From an uncultured Erysipelotrichaceae bacterium (GTDB lineage: Bacteria > Bacillota_I > Bacilli_A > Erysipelotrichales > Erysipelotrichaceae), in assembly GCA_902793635.1 (NCBI GenBank), contig CADBEA010000013.1, positions 1 through 53,679 on the forward strand: a stretch of DNA of 53,679 nt, given 5' to 3'. How positions within the stretch are numbered: position 1 is the first letter of the stretch; each line of letters begins with the position of its first letter. This document shows positions 1-10,082 of the stretch, piece after piece. A model generated the notes under the pieces. The model saw only the letters and a list, made by a program, of their open reading frames with translations, was not told the DNA's origin and made no database searches. The position numbers were made by a program, and so were the translations under genes.

Positions 1-513
1 CGCATATGACATCATTGGCTTTTCCGGCGCAGGTAGCTGCAACTTTTTATCACCTTCCTTTAACTGCTTTCTGCGCTCTCTTTGATAAACAGCACTCTTT
101 GTGTCATTACCGATGCTCAGCGGGCGAACAATGTCTGTATTGCTGTTCTGCTTATGAAGCGTAGGTTCCTTAGGATCTCCGGAGATGGTTAATCCTGTAA
201 TTGCCATAAACCCATCTGAATTAATGTAGATCAGCGAGCCTTGGATCAGCGTGGCAACCCCATCTTTAATTGATACATCCGTGAAGCCACCCTTCATTTC
301 AGCCTCCAGATCATCAGCTGTTACAGGAAGAACTCTATCCCCTATACGCCGGCAAAGAACTCCGCCATAGTTCGCATATTTTAATGCGAGACGGATCCAA
401 AGCCACAAATATTCAGGTCCGTGTTTCAGTCGTTCAATTGCCGCAACTTCTTCACAGGAATCAATTCCCAGTTCAACTTTTAGGAAATAAAACGTTTCAT
501 TTCTATTCGGCAC
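1..513 (-). CDS. Phage-like replisome organizer N-terminal protein (partial, runs off left edge)
   Basis: Only the first 171 codons are in the window; the reading frame is open to the edge. It begins at a GTG preceded by an AAGGA-like site and overlaps the end of the small ORF upstream by 11 bases. The first ~110 residues (FYFLKVELGI near the start, then WLWIRLALKYANYGG, then a run of short strands and helices) look like the winged-helix N-terminal domain of phage replisome organizer/DnaD-like proteins, which load helicase at phage origins. After residue ~130 it becomes basic and polar, as expected for a linker. Family assignment is from pattern memory only. The A+T-rich composition and its position at the interruption of comFA point to a prophage or integrative element rather than chromosome core. 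Confidence 0.55.
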   Translation of the reverse strand, partial: MPNRNETFYFLKVELGIDSCEEVAAIERLKHGPEYLWLWIRLALKYANYGGVLCRRIGDRVLPVTADDLEAEMKGGFTDVSIKDGVATLIQGSLIYINSDGFMAITGLTISGDPKEPTLHKQNSNTDIVRPLSIGNDTKSAVYQRERRKQLKEGDKKLQLPAPEKPMMSYA

Positions 514-889
514 TTTGATCACCGTCCTTTTCTGATTCAGGTGATCCGTCCGAACCTGGGTGCCATTTGGCATATTCCTCTTCATTCATTTCCCGAGCTA
601 ATTTGGCAACACGCATTCTTGTGATTCCTAAATAATCGGCGGTTTCAGCATCACTGTGAGTGCCTTTGAATCGAATGCTGTAATTGAATATTTTATGCTT
701 TAGAACATTGGGATTTTTAGCATGAATTGTGTAGCTATATACGAGGTCTAACGCGGCAAAGACGTGAACACCGTCTGTAACTGTTCTTTCGCGGCTGATC
801 GGATCGATGAGATTATATGTGTAATGCCTGTAAAATAGCGTAAAATCAAGCAAATATAGGTATTCATAGTTTGTTCCCGAAATACTCAT
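503..889 (-). CDS. Small HTH-type protein at the element boundary, function unknown
   Basis: A 128-residue ORF whose ATG overlaps the TGA that ends the truncated comFA frame (ATGA overlap). Residues ~78-100 (HSDAETADYLGITRMRVAKL) read as a helix-turn-helix, followed by an acidic tail. The N-terminal 70 residues are aromatic-rich and not recognised. There is no good ribosome binding site before the ATG, so it may be translated by coupling to the comFA remnant, or start at an internal codon. It sits directly upstream of the replisome-organizer-like gene and is probably co-transcribed with it. The likely role is DNA binding within a mobile element; this is inference. Confidence 0.5.
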   Translation of the reverse strand: MSISGTNYEYLYLLDFTLFYRHYTYNLIDPISRERTVTDGVHVFAALDLVYSYTIHAKNPNVLKHKIFNYSIRFKGTHSDAETADYLGITRMRVAKLAREMNEEEYAKWHPGSDGSPESEKDGDQSAE

Positions 890-900
890 ACACCATGAGT
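883..900. other. Probable attachment junction inside comFA
   Basis: The comFA reading frame runs normally through CTTH and then stops after two more codons, exactly where the A+T-rich element genes begin. The junction carries a 5-bp inverted repeat with a 5-base centre (CTCAT-ACACC-ATGAG on the + strand). Family knowledge predicts a Gln-Leu-like continuation after CTTH, so the chromosomal side ends near position 893. Calling this attL/attR is inference; the other end is outside the window. Confidence 0.45.
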
Positions 901-1356
901 TGTGCAGATGATCAGATCACCGTCTGTCACATCCGTATGACCACCGCATACGGCAATGACCTTCGCCTTCGGGAAATACTGCGCCAGCCGTTCCCGCAGT
1001 TCCAGGACTACCTGTCTTCTGGGAATGGCAAAGCATACCTTCTTTCCCTCTTTCAGCATCTTCGCAATGCTCATAACAACCAGTTCTGTCTTGCCCGCAC
1101 CGCAGACGCAGTGCAGCAGCACATCAGAGGAATCAATCAGTTCCGCGCACCTTACGGCAATTTTTTCCTGCGCCTTGGTCAGCGGATACTGCAGGGTATA
1201 CTCTTCACTGCCTTCGGAAACCGGCGAAAGAGAGACCGGTTCATTCTCTTCCTCCAGCATGACCCTGCCGAAGGATATGCATTTGCGGCAATACCATCCC
1301 CTGCTTCCTTTGTAGAAGTATTCTCTGTCTGTATTCAGACATCTTGGACATTGCAT
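886..1356 (-). pseudogene. comFA: comFA, 5' part only (late competence DNA helicase, truncated)
   Basis: ComFA is the DEAD/DEAH-type ATPase that helps pull single-stranded DNA through the competence channel. What remains is 156 residues against about 400 or more in the family: a four-cysteine zinc finger (Cys3, Cys6, Cys23, Cys26), the Walker A motif GAGKTE near residue 86, the AIPRRQ motif near residue 110 and the DLIICTTH strand, then a premature TGA. Walker B/DEAH and the whole second RecA lobe are missing, so this copy cannot be a working translocase. The ATG at 1356 is chosen because a GAGGAGG site lies 7 bases upstream; an in-frame GTG further out would lie inside that site. The rest of the gene may lie past the far end of the integrated element. 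Confidence 0.75.
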
Positions 1357-1359
1357 AAT

Positions 1360-1377
1360 AAAAGACCTCCTCACTGT
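1360..1377. repeat. 18-bp direct repeat, copy 1 (comFA leader)
   Basis: AAAAGACCTCCTCACTGT, identical to the copy at 2674-2691. Read on the minus strand it contains the comFA ribosome binding site. Weaker similarity extends about 30 bases further upstream (an AAAAAGAG block and an AT-rich spacer), suggesting that a leader of ~50 bp was duplicated. Confidence 0.8.
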
Positions 1378-1576: not shown

Positions 1577-2596
1577 CTAATCACTTTCCATCTTCCCGAT
1601 TGAACTCGTTGTTTTAAAATCAATACGGATATTGCTGAAAACAACTTCACCAGCAAGACAATTCATATCTGTCGGATGTATTACAAAACAGATTTCCCTG
1701 ATACACTCCAAAGGTTTGTAATTCATGTTTTTTAAAGGAATGCGAATTTCGTTTTTACCAGCTCCCACAATTGTTTCATTAACAAAGACCCTGTTGTTTT
1801 CAGCACTTTTGAATTCAACTGTCAGTTTATTCAGAACCCCATCACGATTATCTGCGGTAAAACAGAATGCAGCATCACTGTCAAAGGACAGGTATTCCCT
1901 GAGATTCAGATTTTCCCAATACACAAGTGCAACTGAGGCAAATGACGGATCATCGTATTCAAGTAATGACAGGTTAAATGTGAATTCGAAAGAATCACCT
2001 GCATTGCGGCATTTTGCGATTCTGTCACGCGGAACCGGCAGCCTGCCTCTCTCATCAAAATAAGCACCTGCCTCGACTCCGTCATACAATGATGCTTTTC
2101 TCAATATTGATTCATGAATCATTGTGCAGAATTTTGCAATTGCGACATTCAGCCTTGCAATCGTCGGATCATTCTTATCTTCGGGAAAGTGCCTGAGCAC
2201 TTCAGTAACTGACTTTGATGACGTAAGATCAGCAAGCTGCATTTCAACTAACGGTGTGTCTGCCAAAGCCTGTCCTTTGTTCAAAGGAGGCAGCAGCATT
2301 GGCTGAATCAGAATAGATGCCACGTCATCATCGCAATATCTCTCATATGCGGCACCAAGTTCAAATGCACAGTATTTGCTCTTCCAGTATTCTCTGGAAA
2401 TGATCGCTATGAATACATCCGCATTTTTCAGATTTTTATAAATAGTATCTTTGAAATTCTGGCCTGGATCAATTGATGATTCATCTGACGAACAGAAAAT
2501 ATATACATCCGGGTTAACAGCGAAAATCAATTTCATTAAGTCATCAACCAGCCAGGCATTCTGAGATGAGTGACTTATAAACACATTTTGCTTCAT
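1577..2596 (-). CDS. TIR-domain protein with C-terminal galactose-binding-like beta-sandwich
   Basis: A 339-residue protein. Residues 1-~135 form a bacterial TIR domain: FISHSS at 6-11, a D-P-G loop near 43-45, IAIISREYW at 63-71 and CAFELGAA at 76-83, where Glu79 fits the catalytic glutamate of TIR NADases. Residues ~200-328 are strand-rich and resemble the CBM11/CIA30 galactose-binding-like fold (SFEFTFNLS, AAFCFTADN, NEIRIPLKN, VVFSNIRIDF). TIR proteins act as NAD+-cleaving effectors or signal producers in phage defence; the beta-sandwich may be the sensor (inference). The ATG at 2596 is preferred over one 20 codons upstream because of the GAGG site before it and the promoter at 2632-2660. 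No partner gene lies beside it. It is A+T rich and bracketed by a direct repeat. Confidence 0.75.
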   Translation of the reverse strand: MKQNVFISHSSQNAWLVDDLMKLIFAVNPDVYIFCSSDESSIDPGQNFKDTIYKNLKNADVFIAIISREYWKSKYCAFELGAAYERYCDDDVASILIQPMLLPPLNKGQALADTPLVEMQLADLTSSKSVTEVLRHFPEDKNDPTIARLNVAIAKFCTMIHESILRKASLYDGVEAGAYFDERGRLPVPRDRIAKCRNAGDSFEFTFNLSLLEYDDPSFASVALVYWENLNLREYLSFDSDAAFCFTADNRDGVLNKLTVEFKSAENNRVFVNETIVGAGKNEIRIPLKNMNYKPLECIREICFVIHPTDMNCLAGEVVFSNIRIDFKTTSSIGKMESD

Positions 2597-2631
2597 ATTC
2601 TTATAATCCTCGTATCTTTTTTCAGCGTAAT

Positions 2632-2660
2632 AGAATATTGAAATATTTACAAGCATTCAA
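2632..2660 (-). promoter_or_regulatory. Promoter of the TIR gene
   Basis: On the minus strand TTGAAT (2655-2660), a 17-base spacer and TATTCT (2632-2637). Transcription would start near 2625, about 30 bases before the chosen ATG, which supports that start over the upstream one. Confidence 0.4.
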
Positions 2661-2673
2661 AACAGCAAATCAA

Positions 2674-2691
2674 AAAAGACCTCCTCACTGT
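2674..2691. repeat. 18-bp direct repeat, copy 2 (downstream of tatD)
   Basis: Identical to 1360-1377. Here the ribosome binding site it contains has no gene correctly spaced after it: the nearest ATG is about 20 bases off and the likely TIR start is about 85 bases off. It therefore looks like the orphaned original leader of comFA, which would once have followed tatD directly. Confidence 0.8.
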
Positions 2692-2722
2692 ATGCATTGT
2701 GAGAAAGCCTTGATACTCTTTT

Positions 2723-3484
2723 TTATTTCTCTTCGCCAAACAGCCGGTTGAAGTTATCGAACACCGCTTCGGCAAGCTGTTCCATCGTGATGTTTCTGAT
2801 CTGACTGATCGCTTCATAAATACGTATCACATCTTCCGGTTCATGCCGGTGTCCCAATACCGGACTCTGATACGGTGAATCGGTTTCGATCAGCAGCCGG
2901 TCAAGAGGAATATCCGCAATGACCTGACGCGGCTTTTTCGATCCCGGAAACAGGACACTGGCACCGAAGGAAATATAGTAACCTTCTTTGATATACAGCC
3001 GGGCCATTTCAAGCGAACCGCTGTAGCTGTGAATGATGCCGCGACAGGGATGTTCCTTCAGGATGGCCAATGTATCGGCACTGGCTTTGCGGCTGTGGAT
3101 ATTCACGGGCAGATGATACCTGCGGGCCATTTCCAGCTGGGAAACAAAGAAATGTCTCTGCTGTTCCTTCGTGTGCGGATGTGAATAATAATCCAGGCCG
3201 GTTTCACCAATCATATCGGGATGATATGTTTCGACGATTCTGTCCAGTTCCCGCAGTCTTTCCTCGCTGCTGTCATCTTCGAGATCCTGGGGATGAATAC
3301 TGCAGGCAAGTTTAAAACCGGGATACTGTTCCCTGAGAACAGCTGACGCCTGCAGGTCATGTCTGCTGCAGCAGATCATGATGACATTACGGACATCTTT
3401 GTCCAGCATTCTGTTTATGACATCTGTCCTGTCACCGTCATACTGCCGGGAACCGAGATGACAATGCGCGTCAACAAAGATCAT
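2723..3484 (-). CDS. tatD: TatD family metal-dependent DNase
   Basis: A 253-residue TIM-barrel hydrolase of the usual family length. The metal ligands are visible: DAHCHL at the N-terminus (HxH), GETGLDYY (catalytic Glu), the HSRKA and IIHSYSG histidines, and IETDSPY near residue 200. TatD enzymes are Mg-dependent 3'-5' exonucleases or related hydrolases. A good ribosome binding site (GGGAGAAGG) precedes the ATG. It follows the MFS gene by 20 bases and probably shares its transcript; comFA probably followed it before the TIR insertion. Confidence 0.9.
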   Translation of the reverse strand: MIFVDAHCHLGSRQYDGDRTDVINRMLDKDVRNVIMICCSRHDLQASAVLREQYPGFKLACSIHPQDLEDDSSEERLRELDRIVETYHPDMIGETGLDYYSHPHTKEQQRHFFVSQLEMARRYHLPVNIHSRKASADTLAILKEHPCRGIIHSYSGSLEMARLYIKEGYYISFGASVLFPGSKKPRQVIADIPLDRLLIETDSPYQSPVLGHRHEPEDVIRIYEAISQIRNITMEQLAEAVFDNFNRLFGEEK

Positions 3485-3504
3485 TTTCCTTCTCCCTTTC
3501 CGGT

Positions 3505-4758
3505 TTACTGTTCAACGTTGTAGATCACAGCGACTTCCTTCCGGCGGGTGCCGATAATGGCAAATGCCGAAAGCAGGCAGAAGCCCATAAAACCGGAAAT
3601 AACAAGCCGCGGTGATATCTGTAAAGCAAGCCAGCCGGCTGTCAGTTCACCGACCAGGCTGCCGCAGGTATTCAGCATATTGAAAGCACCGTTGAATCTG
3701 CCCTTCTTTTCATCCGGCACATAAGCCTGGGTCGCTGAAACACGGATCGTGTAACTGGTCACACCAAGGATACCTGACATAAAGCAGAACAAAGCGCCAA
3801 GCGGCAGCGACAGATAAAGGTAGGTGCCTTCCAGAACAGCGGTGACGATATACACGAAAAAAGCAATCCGGAATTTGTGCTGGGGCGGAATCTTATGCCG
3901 GTAATGCAGACCGCCGCCGATTGCCCGGCCGACCACGCTCATGCCGACTACGATCATGAAGATATACTCTCCGTTGGCGTAATTCGCCCTGAACCATGGC
4001 AGTGTCAGAACATTGGTGGCACCGTAGGTCATCGCAGAAACGGTAAAATACAGGGCAATGGCCAGCAGGCCTTTGTCGTTTTTCAGGAAGAAGAATCCTT
4101 CCCTGATATCTCTCAGCATCATTTTTGTCCGATGCTGCGTGTCCTCCGTCTTCTTCTGCAGATCAATATACTGCTCATAGCCGTCAGCAATTCTTGTTTC
4201 CATAACTGCCGCCAGGAAGAAACAGACCGCGTTGGCAGCCAGCAGCGGTGAAATACCGACCTGCTTGTAGACAAACGTCGCCACCGGCACCATGATCGCC
4301 GACAGGGTTTCCAGAACGGAAGCGACCGAATATGCTTTGGCATAATTGCCTTTGGTGATCAGCAGCGGGTAAAAACTGGAATATGCGACCAGATAAATAC
4401 TGTGGATCGATCCAATCAGAAAGACATATACCGCAAACAGAGGAAAACTGAACCAGCCGCCGGCAAGAATAAACGAAGCGGCAAGATAGAGAATACTGGA
4501 CAGGAAATCCAGCATGTAAATTGTCCGGCGCCGTGAGAAACGATCAAGAATCGCTCCGGAAATGATCGGAACGATGATCTGCGGAATGGTAAATACCGCC
4601 AGATAAACAGCATAAAGGAGCGTGGATTCCGTATAATCCAGAACCATCAGACTCATTGCGAAACCGGACATCGCATTGCCGAGCATGGAAACAACACTGC
4701 CGGCTGTAATGATCGTGAAGTCCCTTGTCCAAAGGGTGTTCTTTTCTTCTGCAGGCAT
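3505..4758 (-). CDS. MFS exporter, macrolide-efflux (MefA)-like
   Basis: 417 residues with about 12 hydrophobic segments. The N-terminal pattern (TRDFTIITAGSVVSMLG, then ILDRFSRRRT between helices 2 and 3) and the C-terminal VSATQAYVPDEKKGRFNG loop are typical of the MFS_3/MefA-type drug exporters. Substrate cannot be told from sequence. No strong ribosome binding site precedes the ATG. A minus-strand ORF of up to 82 codons (4768-5016, with a 46-codon version from an internal ATG) ends 9 bases upstream; it lacks a ribosome binding site and was not called. tatD follows in the same direction. Confidence 0.8.
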   Translation of the reverse strand: MPAEEKNTLWTRDFTIITAGSVVSMLGNAMSGFAMSLMVLDYTESTLLYAVYLAVFTIPQIIVPIISGAILDRFSRRRTIYMLDFLSSILYLAASFILAGGWFSFPLFAVYVFLIGSIHSIYLVAYSSFYPLLITKGNYAKAYSVASVLETLSAIMVPVATFVYKQVGISPLLAANAVCFFLAAVMETRIADGYEQYIDLQKKTEDTQHRTKMMLRDIREGFFFLKNDKGLLAIALYFTVSAMTYGATNVLTLPWFRANYANGEYIFMIVVGMSVVGRAIGGGLHYRHKIPPQHKFRIAFFVYIVTAVLEGTYLYLSLPLGALFCFMSGILGVTSYTIRVSATQAYVPDEKKGRFNGAFNMLNTCGSLVGELTAGWLALQISPRLVISGFMGFCLLSAFAIIGTRRKEVAVIYNVEQ

Positions 4759-6694: not shown

Positions 6695-6709
6695 TCAGAA
6701 AACAGATAA

Positions 6710-6730
6710 GGGAGCGTGTCAACGCTCCCT
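6710..6730 (+). terminator. Terminator after the DUF4015 gene
   Basis: 8-bp stem GGGAGCGT/ACGCTCCC with a 4-base loop, followed by TTT. It separates this gene from the carbonic anhydrase gene, which has its own TATAAT at 6760-6765. Confidence 0.7.
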
Positions 6731-6791
6731 TTCATATTTCCGCCGGGAAAAGAAACAACTATAATATTTATATAAAGACGGAGCAATTCAT

Positions 6792-7349
6792 ATGAAAACA
6801 CAATACACCGCCGAAGAAACCCTTCAGAAACTGAAGGAAGGCAACCGGCAATACATCGATTCGGAACGGAATCCCGGTGACATTTCCCGGCATATCCGTG
6901 AAGAAACCTATGCTCATGGCCAGCATCCCTACGCAACCGTGATTGCCTGCTCGGATTCACGTGAGATTCCCGAAGCGATTTTCTCGGCCGGTATCGGCGA
7001 GATCTTCACGATCCGCGTGGCCGGTAATGTCATCGATGCATCGCAGCTCGGCAGTATTGAATACGCGGCCGAACACCTGCATGTGCCGCTGACCGTCGTG
7101 CTTGGTCATACGAACTGCGGTGCGGTGGAAGCCGCTTCGCAGGGCCATCTCGAAGGTTATGCCGGAACCCTGACAAAGGACATTTACAAGGCAATCAAAG
7201 GCGAACCTGATCTGACTGCCGCCAGCCGTCGGAATGTCCGTTATCAGCTGGAAAAGATCCGTACGGCATTTGCCGGTAAATGCTGTTTCACAGCGATCGG
7301 TGCCCTCTATCATATCGAAAGCGGCATCGTTGAGTGGTTTGAAGACTGA
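6792..7349 (+). CDS. Beta-class carbonic anhydrase
   Basis: 185 residues. Zinc ligands Cys53 and Asp55 in ACSDSR, then His106 and Cys109 in GHTNCGAV, the hallmark of beta carbonic anhydrases, with VAGN at 76-79. It interconverts CO2 and bicarbonate, supplying bicarbonate to carboxylases in the cytoplasm. It is a little shorter than many family members, with a compact C-terminus. CGGAG 8 bases before the ATG supports the start. Single gene, bounded by terminators on both sides. Confidence 0.9.
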   Translation: MKTQYTAEETLQKLKEGNRQYIDSERNPGDISRHIREETYAHGQHPYATVIACSDSREIPEAIFSAGIGEIFTIRVAGNVIDASQLGSIEYAAEHLHVPLTVVLGHTNCGAVEAASQGHLEGYAGTLTKDIYKAIKGEPDLTAASRRNVRYQLEKIRTAFAGKCCFTAIGALYHIESGIVEWFED

Positions 7350-7353
7350 AAAC

Positions 7354-7385
7354 AGCCGGGTTCTGCTGAACCTGGCTATTTCTTT
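7354..7385 (+). terminator. Terminator after the carbonic anhydrase gene
   Basis: 10-bp stem AGCCGGGTTC/GAACCTGGCT with a short loop and one G-U pair, followed by a T-rich tail. Confidence 0.7.
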
Positions 7386-7427
7386 CTCATAACACAGAAT
7401 TATGCAATATATGCGGCATCTGAACGT

Positions 7428-7946
7428 TCACAAACGATGAACGATTTCCGATGCCTCTTTTGTTTTCTCATGCAGGACAGCAGGCGCCGCGTTTTCCGCC
7501 GGCCAGCCAACTGCGAACATGGCAATCAGATCACTGTCCGCCGTCTCGGGAAACTTTTCCTTCACGGCATTGACGTCAAAATGACCGATCCAGGTAGTGC
7601 CAAGACCAAGGTCCTGAATCTGCAGCATCATATGGGTTGCCGCGATTGCCGCATCGATATCAGCGAAATTGCGGCTGTCGAATTCCCGGACCCAGCCTTC
7701 TTCCGGACAGGCACCGATAACAAACACGAGCGGTGCCGGCTGGACGAACAGCTGTTTTGTGCAGTCTTTGATTTTCGCAAGTGCTTCTTCCGATTCCATG
7801 ACCCAGATACGGAACGGCTGATAGTTACAGGCGGTCGGGGCAGCCATGCCAGCCGCGATGATCCGGTCAACAGCCTCTTTCGGAACCGGTCTGTCACTCA
7901 GACTGCGGCAGGAGTAACGTGCTTTGGCAAGTGTGTAAAAACTCAT
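7428..7946 (-). CDS. Nitroreductase family protein
   Basis: 172 residues, the short single-domain form. The N-terminal RYSCRSLSDRPVP and the AAPTACNYQPFRIWVM segment are the FMN-phosphate-binding motifs of the family; LGLGTTWIGHF near residue 117 and the FAVGWPAE strand complete the fold. It binds FMN as a dimer and reduces nitroaromatics, quinones or other acceptors with NAD(P)H; the physiological substrate is unknown. GGAGGTGGAG precedes the ATG. Transcribed alone. Confidence 0.85.
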   Translation of the reverse strand: MSFYTLAKARYSCRSLSDRPVPKEAVDRIIAAGMAAPTACNYQPFRIWVMESEEALAKIKDCTKQLFVQPAPLVFVIGACPEEGWVREFDSRNFADIDAAIAATHMMLQIQDLGLGTTWIGHFDVNAVKEKFPETADSDLIAMFAVGWPAENAAPAVLHEKTKEASEIVHRL

Positions 7947-8006
7947 CTCTTCTCCACCTCCATATACATATACTATATCCCATGAAGCCGGATCATTCGA
8001 TCAAGA

Positions 8007-8042
8007 CGCAAAAGCGGCCCGGCATTAAGCCCGGCCGCCTTC
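8007..8042 (-). terminator. Terminator after ispD
   Basis: G+C-rich stem GCGGCC...GGCCGC with an inner GGC/GCC pair and a TTTTGCG tail on the minus strand, between ispD and the nitroreductase gene. Confidence 0.65.
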
Positions 8043-8068
8043 ATTTCCTTCTGAAGATCAGTTATTCT

Positions 8069-8716
8069 TTACCGCTCCATATCTTCCGGTGTGGTGATCT
8101 TGATATTGGCATAGCTTCCTTCCACGGTTCTGACTCTGACATCCGAGAAGGCTTCCACCAGTGAACAGTCATCCGTGCCGGTGAATTTCGCCTGTATTGC
8201 CTTTTCCATGCACTCCATCAGCAGGCTTGTTTTAAATGCCTGCGGTGTCTGGGCTGCGGCCAGTGTGCTGCGGTCGTAGGTCAGTTCGACATACTCTTCC
8301 GCGTCGATCTTCTTGATCGTATCCTTGCAGGGCACTGTGAGCAGCACCGCGTCATCTGTCTTGAGCGCTTTCTTGATGCGCTTCAGACTCTTCTGATCAA
8401 GATACGGACGGGCGCCGTCATGGATCATGACATATTCGCCGATGGCCGCAAGCAGACCGTTCCTGACACTTTCCTGACGGGTCTTACCGCCTTTGGCAAG
8501 GGTGATCAGACCCGGCCAGTCGCCTTCCATATTCTGATAATATGTCAGCGCCTCGGTAACGACAACGATCTGAATGCAGTCTTTGTCGGATCGGAAAACA
8601 TCCATGGTATGATTCAGGATCGTTCGGCCGTCCCGCATTTTCGCATAGACTTTGTTATAGCCAAGTTTCATTCTTGTGCCGCTTCCCGCGGCTACGATTA
8701 CAGCTGTGTATTTCAT
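8069..8716 (-). CDS. ispD: 2-C-methyl-D-erythritol 4-phosphate cytidylyltransferase
   Basis: 215 residues. The nucleotide-binding loop AAGSGTRMK near residue 10, HDGARPYL near 105, VPCKDTIKK and TDDCSLVE near 180 are the IspD signatures. It adds CMP to MEP in the non-mevalonate isoprenoid pathway. The ribitol-5-phosphate cytidylyltransferase TarI is the main alternative within the family, but no teichoic acid genes are nearby. The internal ATG at 8716 puts the glycine loop at the usual distance; no clear ribosome binding site was found. A perfect 7-bp inverted repeat (8735-8751) lies just upstream. Confidence 0.8.
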   Translation of the reverse strand: MKYTAVIVAAGSGTRMKLGYNKVYAKMRDGRTILNHTMDVFRSDKDCIQIVVVTEALTYYQNMEGDWPGLITLAKGGKTRQESVRNGLLAAIGEYVMIHDGARPYLDQKSLKRIKKALKTDDAVLLTVPCKDTIKKIDAEEYVELTYDRSTLAAAQTPQAFKTSLLMECMEKAIQAKFTGTDDCSLVEAFSDVRVRTVEGSYANIKITTPEDMER

Positions 8717-8734
8717 CAATACTATTAAATCACA

Positions 8735-8751
8735 ATCCATCTCTGATGGAT
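8735..8751. promoter_or_regulatory. Inverted repeat upstream of ispD
   Basis: ATCCATC-TCT-GATGGAT, a perfect 7-bp dyad with a 3-base centre, 19 bases before the ispD start and just after the terminator of the upstream gene. It could be an operator or an mRNA hairpin near the start codon. Confidence 0.4.
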
Positions 8752-8780
8752 AAAAAAAGTGATCCCGTTCAGGAGATCAC
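8752..8780 (-). terminator. Terminator of the small-multidrug-export-type gene
   Basis: On the minus strand GTGATC...GATCAC followed by seven T. The stem overlaps the end of the gene and separates it from ispD. Confidence 0.8.
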
Positions 8781-9260
8781 AGAACCAAGCAGTCCATATG
8801 ACAGGAACGTCATGATTACGGCTGCCAGGAAAATACCCAGCAGAATGGAAATCGATGCCTTTTTCAGATCCATGTCAAACACGGCTGCGACCAGGCTGCC
8901 TGTCCAGGCACCGGTGCCCGGCAGCGGAATACCGACGAACAGCAGCAGACCCAGAAAACCATAACGGTCGATTTTCGGCTTGTTCTTTTCAGCTTTGGCC
9001 ATCAGCCATTCGGCCACTCTGGACAGATGGTGTTCCGACATCCAGTGAAGCACGCTCTTGATACCCCAGAGGATAAACGGAATCGGCACGATATTTCCGA
9101 TCACACACCAGAAGACAGCTTCCCACATCGGCAGTCCGAGCATCCGGGCCAGAATCAGTCCGCCTCTTTCCTCAATCAGCGGGATCATACTGATGAAAAA
9201 TACCGACAGCTGCGGGGAAAGCGGGATATGCGCTGCCCACCAGGCAATAAAACCTTCCAT
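8769..9260 (-). CDS. Small multi-drug export family membrane protein (COG2426)
   Basis: 163 residues, mostly hydrophobic, with 4-5 membrane segments. The SMIPLIEERGGLILA motif near residue 25 and the GIPLPGTGAWTG motif near residue 105 are the signatures of the COG2426 small multi-drug export family. The family name rests on little experimental work, so the transported substrate is open. The ATG at 9260 is chosen because GGAGG lies 7 bases upstream; a longer frame would add a basic N-terminus without a site. Confidence 0.8.
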   Translation of the reverse strand: MEGFIAWWAAHIPLSPQLSVFFISMIPLIEERGGLILARMLGLPMWEAVFWCVIGNIVPIPFILWGIKSVLHWMSEHHLSRVAEWLMAKAEKNKPKIDRYGFLGLLLFVGIPLPGTGAWTGSLVAAVFDMDLKKASISILLGIFLAAVIMTFLSYGLLGSVIS

Positions 9261-9369
9261 CTGATACCTCCGTAAATACCTGCATACTTTATCACAGGCT
9301 GTTTTCTTTCGCAATCTTTACTTCAAAGCCATCCGGAAAACACACTGTGAATATTTGGAAAAATAATTG

Positions 9370-9398
9370 TTGACTTTCACATATTACAGGGTTATTAT
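9370..9398 (+). promoter_or_regulatory. tRNA promoter
   Basis: TTGACT (9370-9375), 17-base spacer, TATTAT (9393-9398), ending 20 bases before the tRNA-Ile gene. Near-consensus sigma-A promoter for the two-tRNA operon. Confidence 0.8.
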
Positions 9399-9418
9399 GG
9401 ATAAGCATTCGGTGAAAT

Positions 9419-9495
<77 letters not shown>

Positions 9496-9512
9496 TTTTA
9501 CTGAATTGATGT

Positions 9513-9588
9513 GGGGTTTTAGCTCAGCTGGGAGAGCACCTGCTTTGCAAGCAGGGGGTCAGCGGTTCGATCCCGCTAAGCTCCACCA
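9513..9588 (+). tRNA. tRNA-Ala (TGC anticodon)
   Basis: 76 bases with encoded CCA. The acceptor stem GGGGTTT pairs with AAGCTCC through G-U pairs, the anticodon loop is TTTGCAA, and GGTTCGATCC forms the T arm. It follows tRNA-Ile by 17 bases. An Ile-Ala pair is usually found inside rRNA operons; here no rRNA flanks it. Confidence 0.97.
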
Positions 9589-9592
9589 TTGA

Positions 9593-9618
9593 AAAGGGAA
9601 CGCAAGTTCCCTTTTTTA
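9593..9618 (+). terminator. Terminator of the tRNA operon
   Basis: AAGGGAAC/GTTCCCTT stem with a GCAA tetraloop and a run of T. Confidence 0.85.
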
Positions 9619-9642
9619 GTTTTACACGGCGCTGGGAAATAC

Positions 9643-9668
9643 AGAAAAAAACTGCATTTCTGCAGTTC
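9643..9668 (-). terminator. Terminator of the lipoprotein gene
   Basis: On the minus strand ACTGCA-GAAA-TGCAGT followed by seven T, directly after the stop codon region. Confidence 0.8.
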
Positions 9669-9674
9669 TGTCCC

Positions 9675-10082
9675 TTACTTGCTGGAGATAATGATCTGGC
9701 CGGTCGTTTTGTTCATTACTTCCGACGAAACGAAATAGTCGCCTGCCGCAAGATCATACTCTGTTTTTCCTGAACTGTTGACAGTCAGTTCAAAATCCGG
9801 CTTGGCTGATTCATCAGGAATCGGCAGAGTATCCGCGTCATTGGAAACACTGTAGAATTCGATAAGGACTTCCCCTTCGATCTCAGAATCGACAACGATC
9901 TTCTTTCCTTCTTCCAGTTCGAAGGTTCCCGCCATGGCAGTGGCGCCTTTCTTCGCGTTTTCCGCATTTATCTCAACATTCAGATCTTCGTTCATGCGCA
10001 TGCCGAATTCACTCTTTGCACAGCCTGCCAGTGATACAGCAAGTACGGCAGCTGCTGCCGCTTTTAATAATTTCTTCATCAT
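9675..10082 (-). CDS. Small lipoprotein of unknown function
   Basis: 135 residues. A lysine start, an alanine-rich hydrophobic core and the lipobox LAGC (Cys21) mark a lipoprotein anchored on the outer face of the membrane. The mature part is strand-rich, without charged clusters or a recognised motif; the C-terminal half (YDLAAGDYFVSSEVMNK) looks like a small beta-sandwich. GGAGG lies 9 bases before the first of two adjacent ATGs. The leader contains a CAGGCG/CGCCTG hairpin (10106-10124). It has its own terminator. No partner is evident from the neighbours. Confidence 0.75.
   Translation of the reverse strand: MMKKLLKAAAAAVLAVSLAGCAKSEFGMRMNEDLNVEINAENAKKGATAMAGTFELEEGKKIVVDSEIEGEVLIEFYSVSNDADTLPIPDESAKPDFELTVNSSGKTEYDLAAGDYFVSSEVMNKTTGQIIISSK

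Follow-up and report, generated by a model that had tools for sequence, protein, structure and literature searches.

What interrupts comFA at the start of this contig, and does the interruption serve to switch competence off and on? The window analysed here is contig C13 of the draft genome G000 (79 contigs), 53,679 bases read from the first base of the contig. As the preliminary description had it, comFA is normal through its zinc finger, its Walker A motif and the segment DLIICTTH, after which the frame reads GGT GTA TGA (Gly-Val-stop), while in relatives with an intact gene CTTH continues as QLYRYYxxFDLLILDEPD. The part of the gene retained in the window covers the N-terminal helicase region only; the truncated ComFA would lack the DEAD box and the helicase C domain and is predicted to be null. 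The foreign bases beyond the junction (1–894) have a G+C content of 42.9%, compared with 50.5% for the window.

The missing part of the gene was found by a Helicase_C search on contig C24 of the same genome (L047 1480–2181, minus strand). There, comFA continues at HQLYRYYRTFDLLILDEPD, the next codon after the junction, with comFC and then secA behind it. Joined at a single CAT, the two halves form a 381-codon frame that is 89.2% identical to the intact comFA of the relative G060, free of gaps over 381 residues. Taken separately, the halves are 90% and 88% identical to the G060 gene, similar values that fit a single lineage. Upstream of comFA, G060 has the same neighbours as the window (MFS transporter, tatD and a TIR gene); given these shared neighbours and the approximately 89% identity of the rejoined gene, the foreign DNA must have been inserted. 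The empty, intact site is present in G060 and in 36 other genomes with a full-length comFA. The halves flanking the foreign DNA are complementary, share a short core and have lost zero bases; absence of base loss together with a three-base shared core is the pattern expected for integration by a serine recombinase. The proposal that an integrated element split comFA is thus upheld: the 3' part is there and takes up at the junction codon, intact alleles occur in relatives, and no collinear relatives with the same truncated gene and without mobile genes were found. The TIR gene at 1577–2656 was considered as cargo of the element and rejected, since G060 also has a TIR gene beside its intact comFA.

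Features at the left end of the window.
Feature	Position	Strand	Remarks
Replisome-organizer-like gene	1..585	minus	PHROG 5968, E 1.9e-4; 195 aa, cut by contig end
Element left end	1..894		last base abuts CAT core; contig ends within element
128-aa ORF beside att site (the HTH ORF of the preliminary description)	503..889	minus	99% identical protein at the same place in G008
CTCAT/ATGAG dyad	885–889 / 895–899		straddles junction; not conserved in relatives
TGA stop from element, two codons past comFA codon 154	886..888	minus	read from the sequence
comFA ORF	886–1374	minus	ends with element-supplied stop
Shared core CAT (codon 154, His)	895–897	minus	once in empty site, at both G000 junctions
comFA 5' part (zinc finger, Walker A, to CTTH)	895..1374	minus	remainder on contig C24
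Host flank: TIR-domain gene, tatD, MFS transporter	1577..4758	minus	outside element; order as in G060

At the C13 junction, the comFA side ends in ACTCAT and the element starts with GGTGTATGAG; at the C24 junction, the element ends with AAAGAAGAGG and comFA starts with CATCAG. The CTCAT/ATGAG dyad to which attention had been drawn at this point is literally present, but the arm on the comFA side belongs to the host and is different in G008, G062 and G013. Across relatives with the same element end, the constant part is only CAT-N5-ATG, so that the dyad appears largely accidental; as a conserved feature it is ruled out by the junctions of these relatives.

Inward from its junction, C24 encodes a 208-aa C-terminal frame of a large serine recombinase (LSR), a VirD4-like coupling protein (T4SS-DNA_transf, E 1e-42; CD1115-like), a MobP3/MobL relaxase (MobL/MobP3, E 3e-18 and 5e-37) and PcfJ, with the MobP3 and CD1115 matches scoring below the NCBIfam cut-offs; a weak CHAP-domain match lies at the contig end. 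Relaxase and coupling protein, the combination known from integrative conjugative and mobilisable elements, are thus both present on C24. On the C13 side, the replisome-organizer-like protein (280 aa in G013) has no Pfam or NCBIfam match and its PHROG match is weak, while the neighbouring 128-aa ORF has no family match. Among the scanned proteins of the C24 and C13 ends (about 12 kb; the interior is unassembled), none is a phage structural protein (capsid, portal, terminase, tail), and none is a tyrosine integrase; the genome has five Phage_integrase matches, none of them on C13 or C24. In IMG/VR, at the sensitivity used, no relatives came up for either of the left-end proteins or for the recombinase stump, and plasmid and phage records yielded only distant relaxases and serine recombinases, with nothing for the replisome-organizer-like protein.

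C24 contains five copies of the exact 15-bp palindrome GGGGCAAWTTGCCCC (L047 2795, 7850, 9587, 11027 and 11535), which is found nowhere else in G000; within this genome it is confined to the element part of C24 and is possibly an operator or a repeat of the element. It was tried as a tag for the missing element contigs and abandoned: a single copy was found in G020, in DNA without homologues of the C24 proteins.

The LSR stump aligns to positions 457–577 of the 651 of a PHROG integrase profile and is 37% identical to a recombinase on contig C20, described below. An intact recombinase with a resolvase domain is absent beside the att site in G000, where only this 208-aa C-terminal part remains, and an intact copy of the same LSR was not found in the genus, the gene being truncated in G008 as well. 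It is cut at different points in the two genomes, adjoining the coupling-protein gene in G000 and a BREX fragment (brxA', brxB) in G008; MobP3 sequence lies further inward in both, so the ends are conserved and the interiors differ. The G008 fragment (C38, L082 2793–3643) consists of brxB and the 3' part of brxA, the remnant of a BREX defence locus. As its LSR is now a C-terminal stump, the G000 copy is probably no longer self-mobile. A catalytic domain is visible in neither copy, so that the elements of G000 and G008 alike would probably need help in trans to move.

We consider it very probable that an LSR-type element, either mobilisable or conjugative, integrated site-specifically in comFA, directly behind codon 154. 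The gene would have been split, with no loss of bases, when attP (..AAAGAAGAGG-CAT-GGTGTATGAG..) recombined with attB (..ACN-CAT-CAG..). The LSR gene would have ended near the right-hand att site, with the genes of the MobP3 relaxase, the VirD4-like coupling protein and PcfJ inside the element; given these three, transfer would presumably proceed by conjugation. From the complementary halves we infer that the ends on C24 and C13 bound one element, which no contig spans; LSR catalysis and conjugal transfer are likewise predictions from sequence.

The insertion is not confined to G000. In a survey of 70 genomes of the genus, comFA matches were obtained in 62, in 37 of which the gene is full length on one contig; the relatives named here are metagenome-assembled genomes that bear the labels Solobacterium sp. 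or Erysipelotrichaceae, several of them originating from the ruminant gut, and most genomes are drafts. By sequenced junctions, comFA is split in 14 of the 62 genomes, at two sites. Site A (CTTH|Q) is occupied in G000, G008, G062, G063 and G078, and site B (LILD|EPD), 15 codons downstream, in G005, G014, G018, G067, G075, G076, G084, G085 and G087; in four more genomes the contigs stop exactly at the core (G090 and G020 for A, G003 and G081 for B). At site A, the element ends of G008, G062 and G063 are the same as in G000, while G078 carries a different recombinase, whose 332-aa frame runs off the contig and contains a Recombinase and a zinc-ribbon domain. The elements at site B have the inverted ends GCGTATG-N7-AGGACTAA; the comFA 3' part of G084 is directly preceded by a pair of serine recombinases, of which the second is disrupted into two frames.

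The element ends are far more similar between species than the gene that surrounds them. Indeed, the site-A left end of G000 is 98.5% identical to that in comFA of G008 and 98% identical to an ectopic copy in G013, whereas the comFA 5' parts of these three genomes are only 63–71% identical, against 98–99% for the element ends. In nearly all comparisons, ends are 92–100% identical between species, compared with mostly 55–82% for the comFA that flanks them in those pairs; the exceptions are three G075 left ends (86–87%), the right end of A in G062 (86.5%) and the right end of G014, which was not recognised. On a tree of comFA 5' halves, which counts three contig-end cases and has rough bootstrap values, the A label requires 4 changes in 4 rows and the B label 8–9 in 10 rows, a scatter that indicates largely independent insertions. 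G018 has both a comFA that is uninterrupted at site B and an occupied allele (97.5% identical over a 239-base overlap), a strain polymorphism. The ectopic copy in G013, in which the left end of the window recurs (98% over 898 bp) joined as ..TACCATCAT|GGTGTATGAG at a different locus, indicates that the site-A left end has become attached to at least two targets. Taken as a whole, comFA is a conserved and apparently tolerated landing site, used by a second LSR element 15 codons downstream.

The competence apparatus of these hosts is incomplete. ComEC (PF03772) is above the cut-off in 0 of the 70 genomes, with 10 of 14 control genomes positive, and a search for the ComEC motif in the 1.5 Mb of the single-contig genome G059 found none. 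A published survey reports the loss of ComEC-family proteins from the Erysipelotrichaceae (PMC6299819). Genes of the comG type persist in most of the 70 genomes; comGB was not found in G000, a T2SSF match being present in 61 of the 70. The comGC gene of G000 is itself interrupted, on C20, by another serine-recombinase element. This region (L050, G000:C20:1-20000, 6697–9994) holds a 718-aa frame that fuses a Ccr-like recombinase to the C terminus of ComGC, preceded by a 403-aa recombinase without a resolvase domain. The only Recombinase-domain (PF07508) matches of G000 are on C20; this contig was considered as part of the comFA element and ruled out, as the C20 element ends in comGC.

Full-length comFA is nevertheless strongly constrained: in eight pairs, dN/dS is 0.04–0.08 for the four closest and 0.15–0.18 for four more distant ones, the latter partly saturated. 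For 5' halves, split genes included, it is 0.03–0.08 (four comparisons), so the splits look recent. Such constraint with ComEC undetectable suggests that ComFA does something without ComEC, and it may have such a role in this genus.

Mobile DNA in competence genes is usually explained as sabotage of transformation, a process that could delete the element. That idea, applied here, would have elements evolved to target comFA, and comGC, and gaining by disabling a DNA import that works without ComEC: comFA function would be constrained, possibly through another import route, and at least two unrelated LSR elements would profit from its knockout. The strong constraint on comFA over the eight full-length pairs speaks for this account, as do LSR elements at two sites of comFA and in comGC of the same genome (G000). 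No alternative channel is known, however, conserved dispensable genes may just make good att sites, and the constraint may reflect a role of ComFA apart from DNA import; we regard the account as unlikely, if the most plausible of the alternatives. Improbable to a greater degree is a temperate prophage, as in Listeria comK or streptococcal comGC, the identity originally proposed for the insert. A replisome-organizer-like gene, weakly matched, does lie at one end, and the comFA insertions of the literature are prophages. The roughly 11 kb of C24 nevertheless carries a relaxase, a coupling protein and PcfJ with no phage structural gene among the scanned proteins, and the end proteins lack IMG/VR relatives, so that the visible genes are those of conjugation or mobilisation next to a serine-recombinase stump, and the prophage identity is not supported.

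Far less credible still is a regulated switch by which precise excision would restore comFA when DNA uptake is wanted. The insertion is precise, its excision would restore the frame, and uninterrupted and occupied alleles occur together in G018. A switch of the Listeria comK type would require an otherwise complete competence machinery, whereas here ComEC is undetectable throughout the genus (in 70 genomes by profile and in G059 by motif), comGB is not found and comGC is split in G000, and the LSR has lost its catalytic half. The suggestion that excision could restore competence is accordingly not supported. Just as remote is an assembly artefact or contamination linking the comFA halves to foreign DNA. 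All genomes are drafts, the contamination estimate is 3.55% and contigs often end inside elements; against this, the same junction, down to the base, is found in independent genomes whose comFA genes have diverged, and the two halves in G000 resemble G060 equally well. The LSR-type mobilisable or conjugative element remains the preferred reading. As the hosts appear to lack the channel for ordinary DNA uptake, comFA gives the impression of a preferred landing site and not of an on/off switch for competence.

Insertion in comFA is less novel than the preliminary description supposed: prophages in this gene are established for S. equi, S. suis and B. cereus/thuringiensis, with different integrases and at different sites (Croucher et al. 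2016, PMC4774983). There, as here, site-specific mobile DNA splits the gene; the present elements differ in their mobilisation or conjugation genes, in the use of two sites 15 codons apart and in hosts that apparently lack ComEC. LSR targets are enriched in DNA competence genes according to Durrant et al. (2022, PMC10083194), whose elements are of the same kind and whose main text names neither comFA nor comG; the present case differs in the recurrence of insertions across one ComEC-less genus. A literature search found no paper combining comFA with "large serine recombinase". The prophages of Listeria comK and streptococcal comYC (comGC) likewise interrupt a competence gene, and G000 also has an LSR element in comGC, but here neither phage genes nor a working competence pathway to switch are seen. 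Like the staphylococcal cassette chromosome (ccr), these elements combine conserved ends with interiors that vary, a coupling protein lying there in G000 and a BREX fragment in G008; CcrB/CcrC are the best NCBIfam matches of the C20 recombinase, yet with 140 of 900 bits, far under the cut-offs, and the targets here are comFA and comGC.

Compared with the known comFA insertions, those described here are unusual in a gene content other than that of a phage, in their frequency and in hosts where ComEC is undetectable. That comFA is hit so often with ComEC undetectable and comFA itself under strong purifying selection makes two questions testable: whether com genes are chosen to block DNA uptake or simply happen to be conserved sites where insertion does no harm, and which function ComFA has in the absence of ComEC. 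The locus also offers two natural serine-recombinase attachment sites, 15 codons apart.

Pieces of these elements and of comFA were also encountered in other arrangements. In G064, which has no detectable comFA, an isolated recombinase-stump fragment (94% at the nucleotide level; C136, L173 9231–9506) adjoins an hsp20-like gene. In G067, a comFA 5' part is joined after CTTH to an apparent IS1380-type transposase fragment (C72, L086 844–1857), the 3' part lying on another contig behind the site-B element. On C60 of G013 (L169 1501–11206), a comFA 5' part is cut at CTT|CAG with other DNA, followed by molybdenum-cofactor and molybdate-transport genes, past which lies the site-A left end at its other locus; this genome has a second, intact comFA on C64. 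Finally, C65 of G075 (about 103.4 kb) carries, downstream of an EF-G-like gene, a cluster (L174 8397–8666) made up of a piece of the site-A recombinase end, 16 comFA codons (HQLYRYYQSFDLLILD) and the site-B left end.
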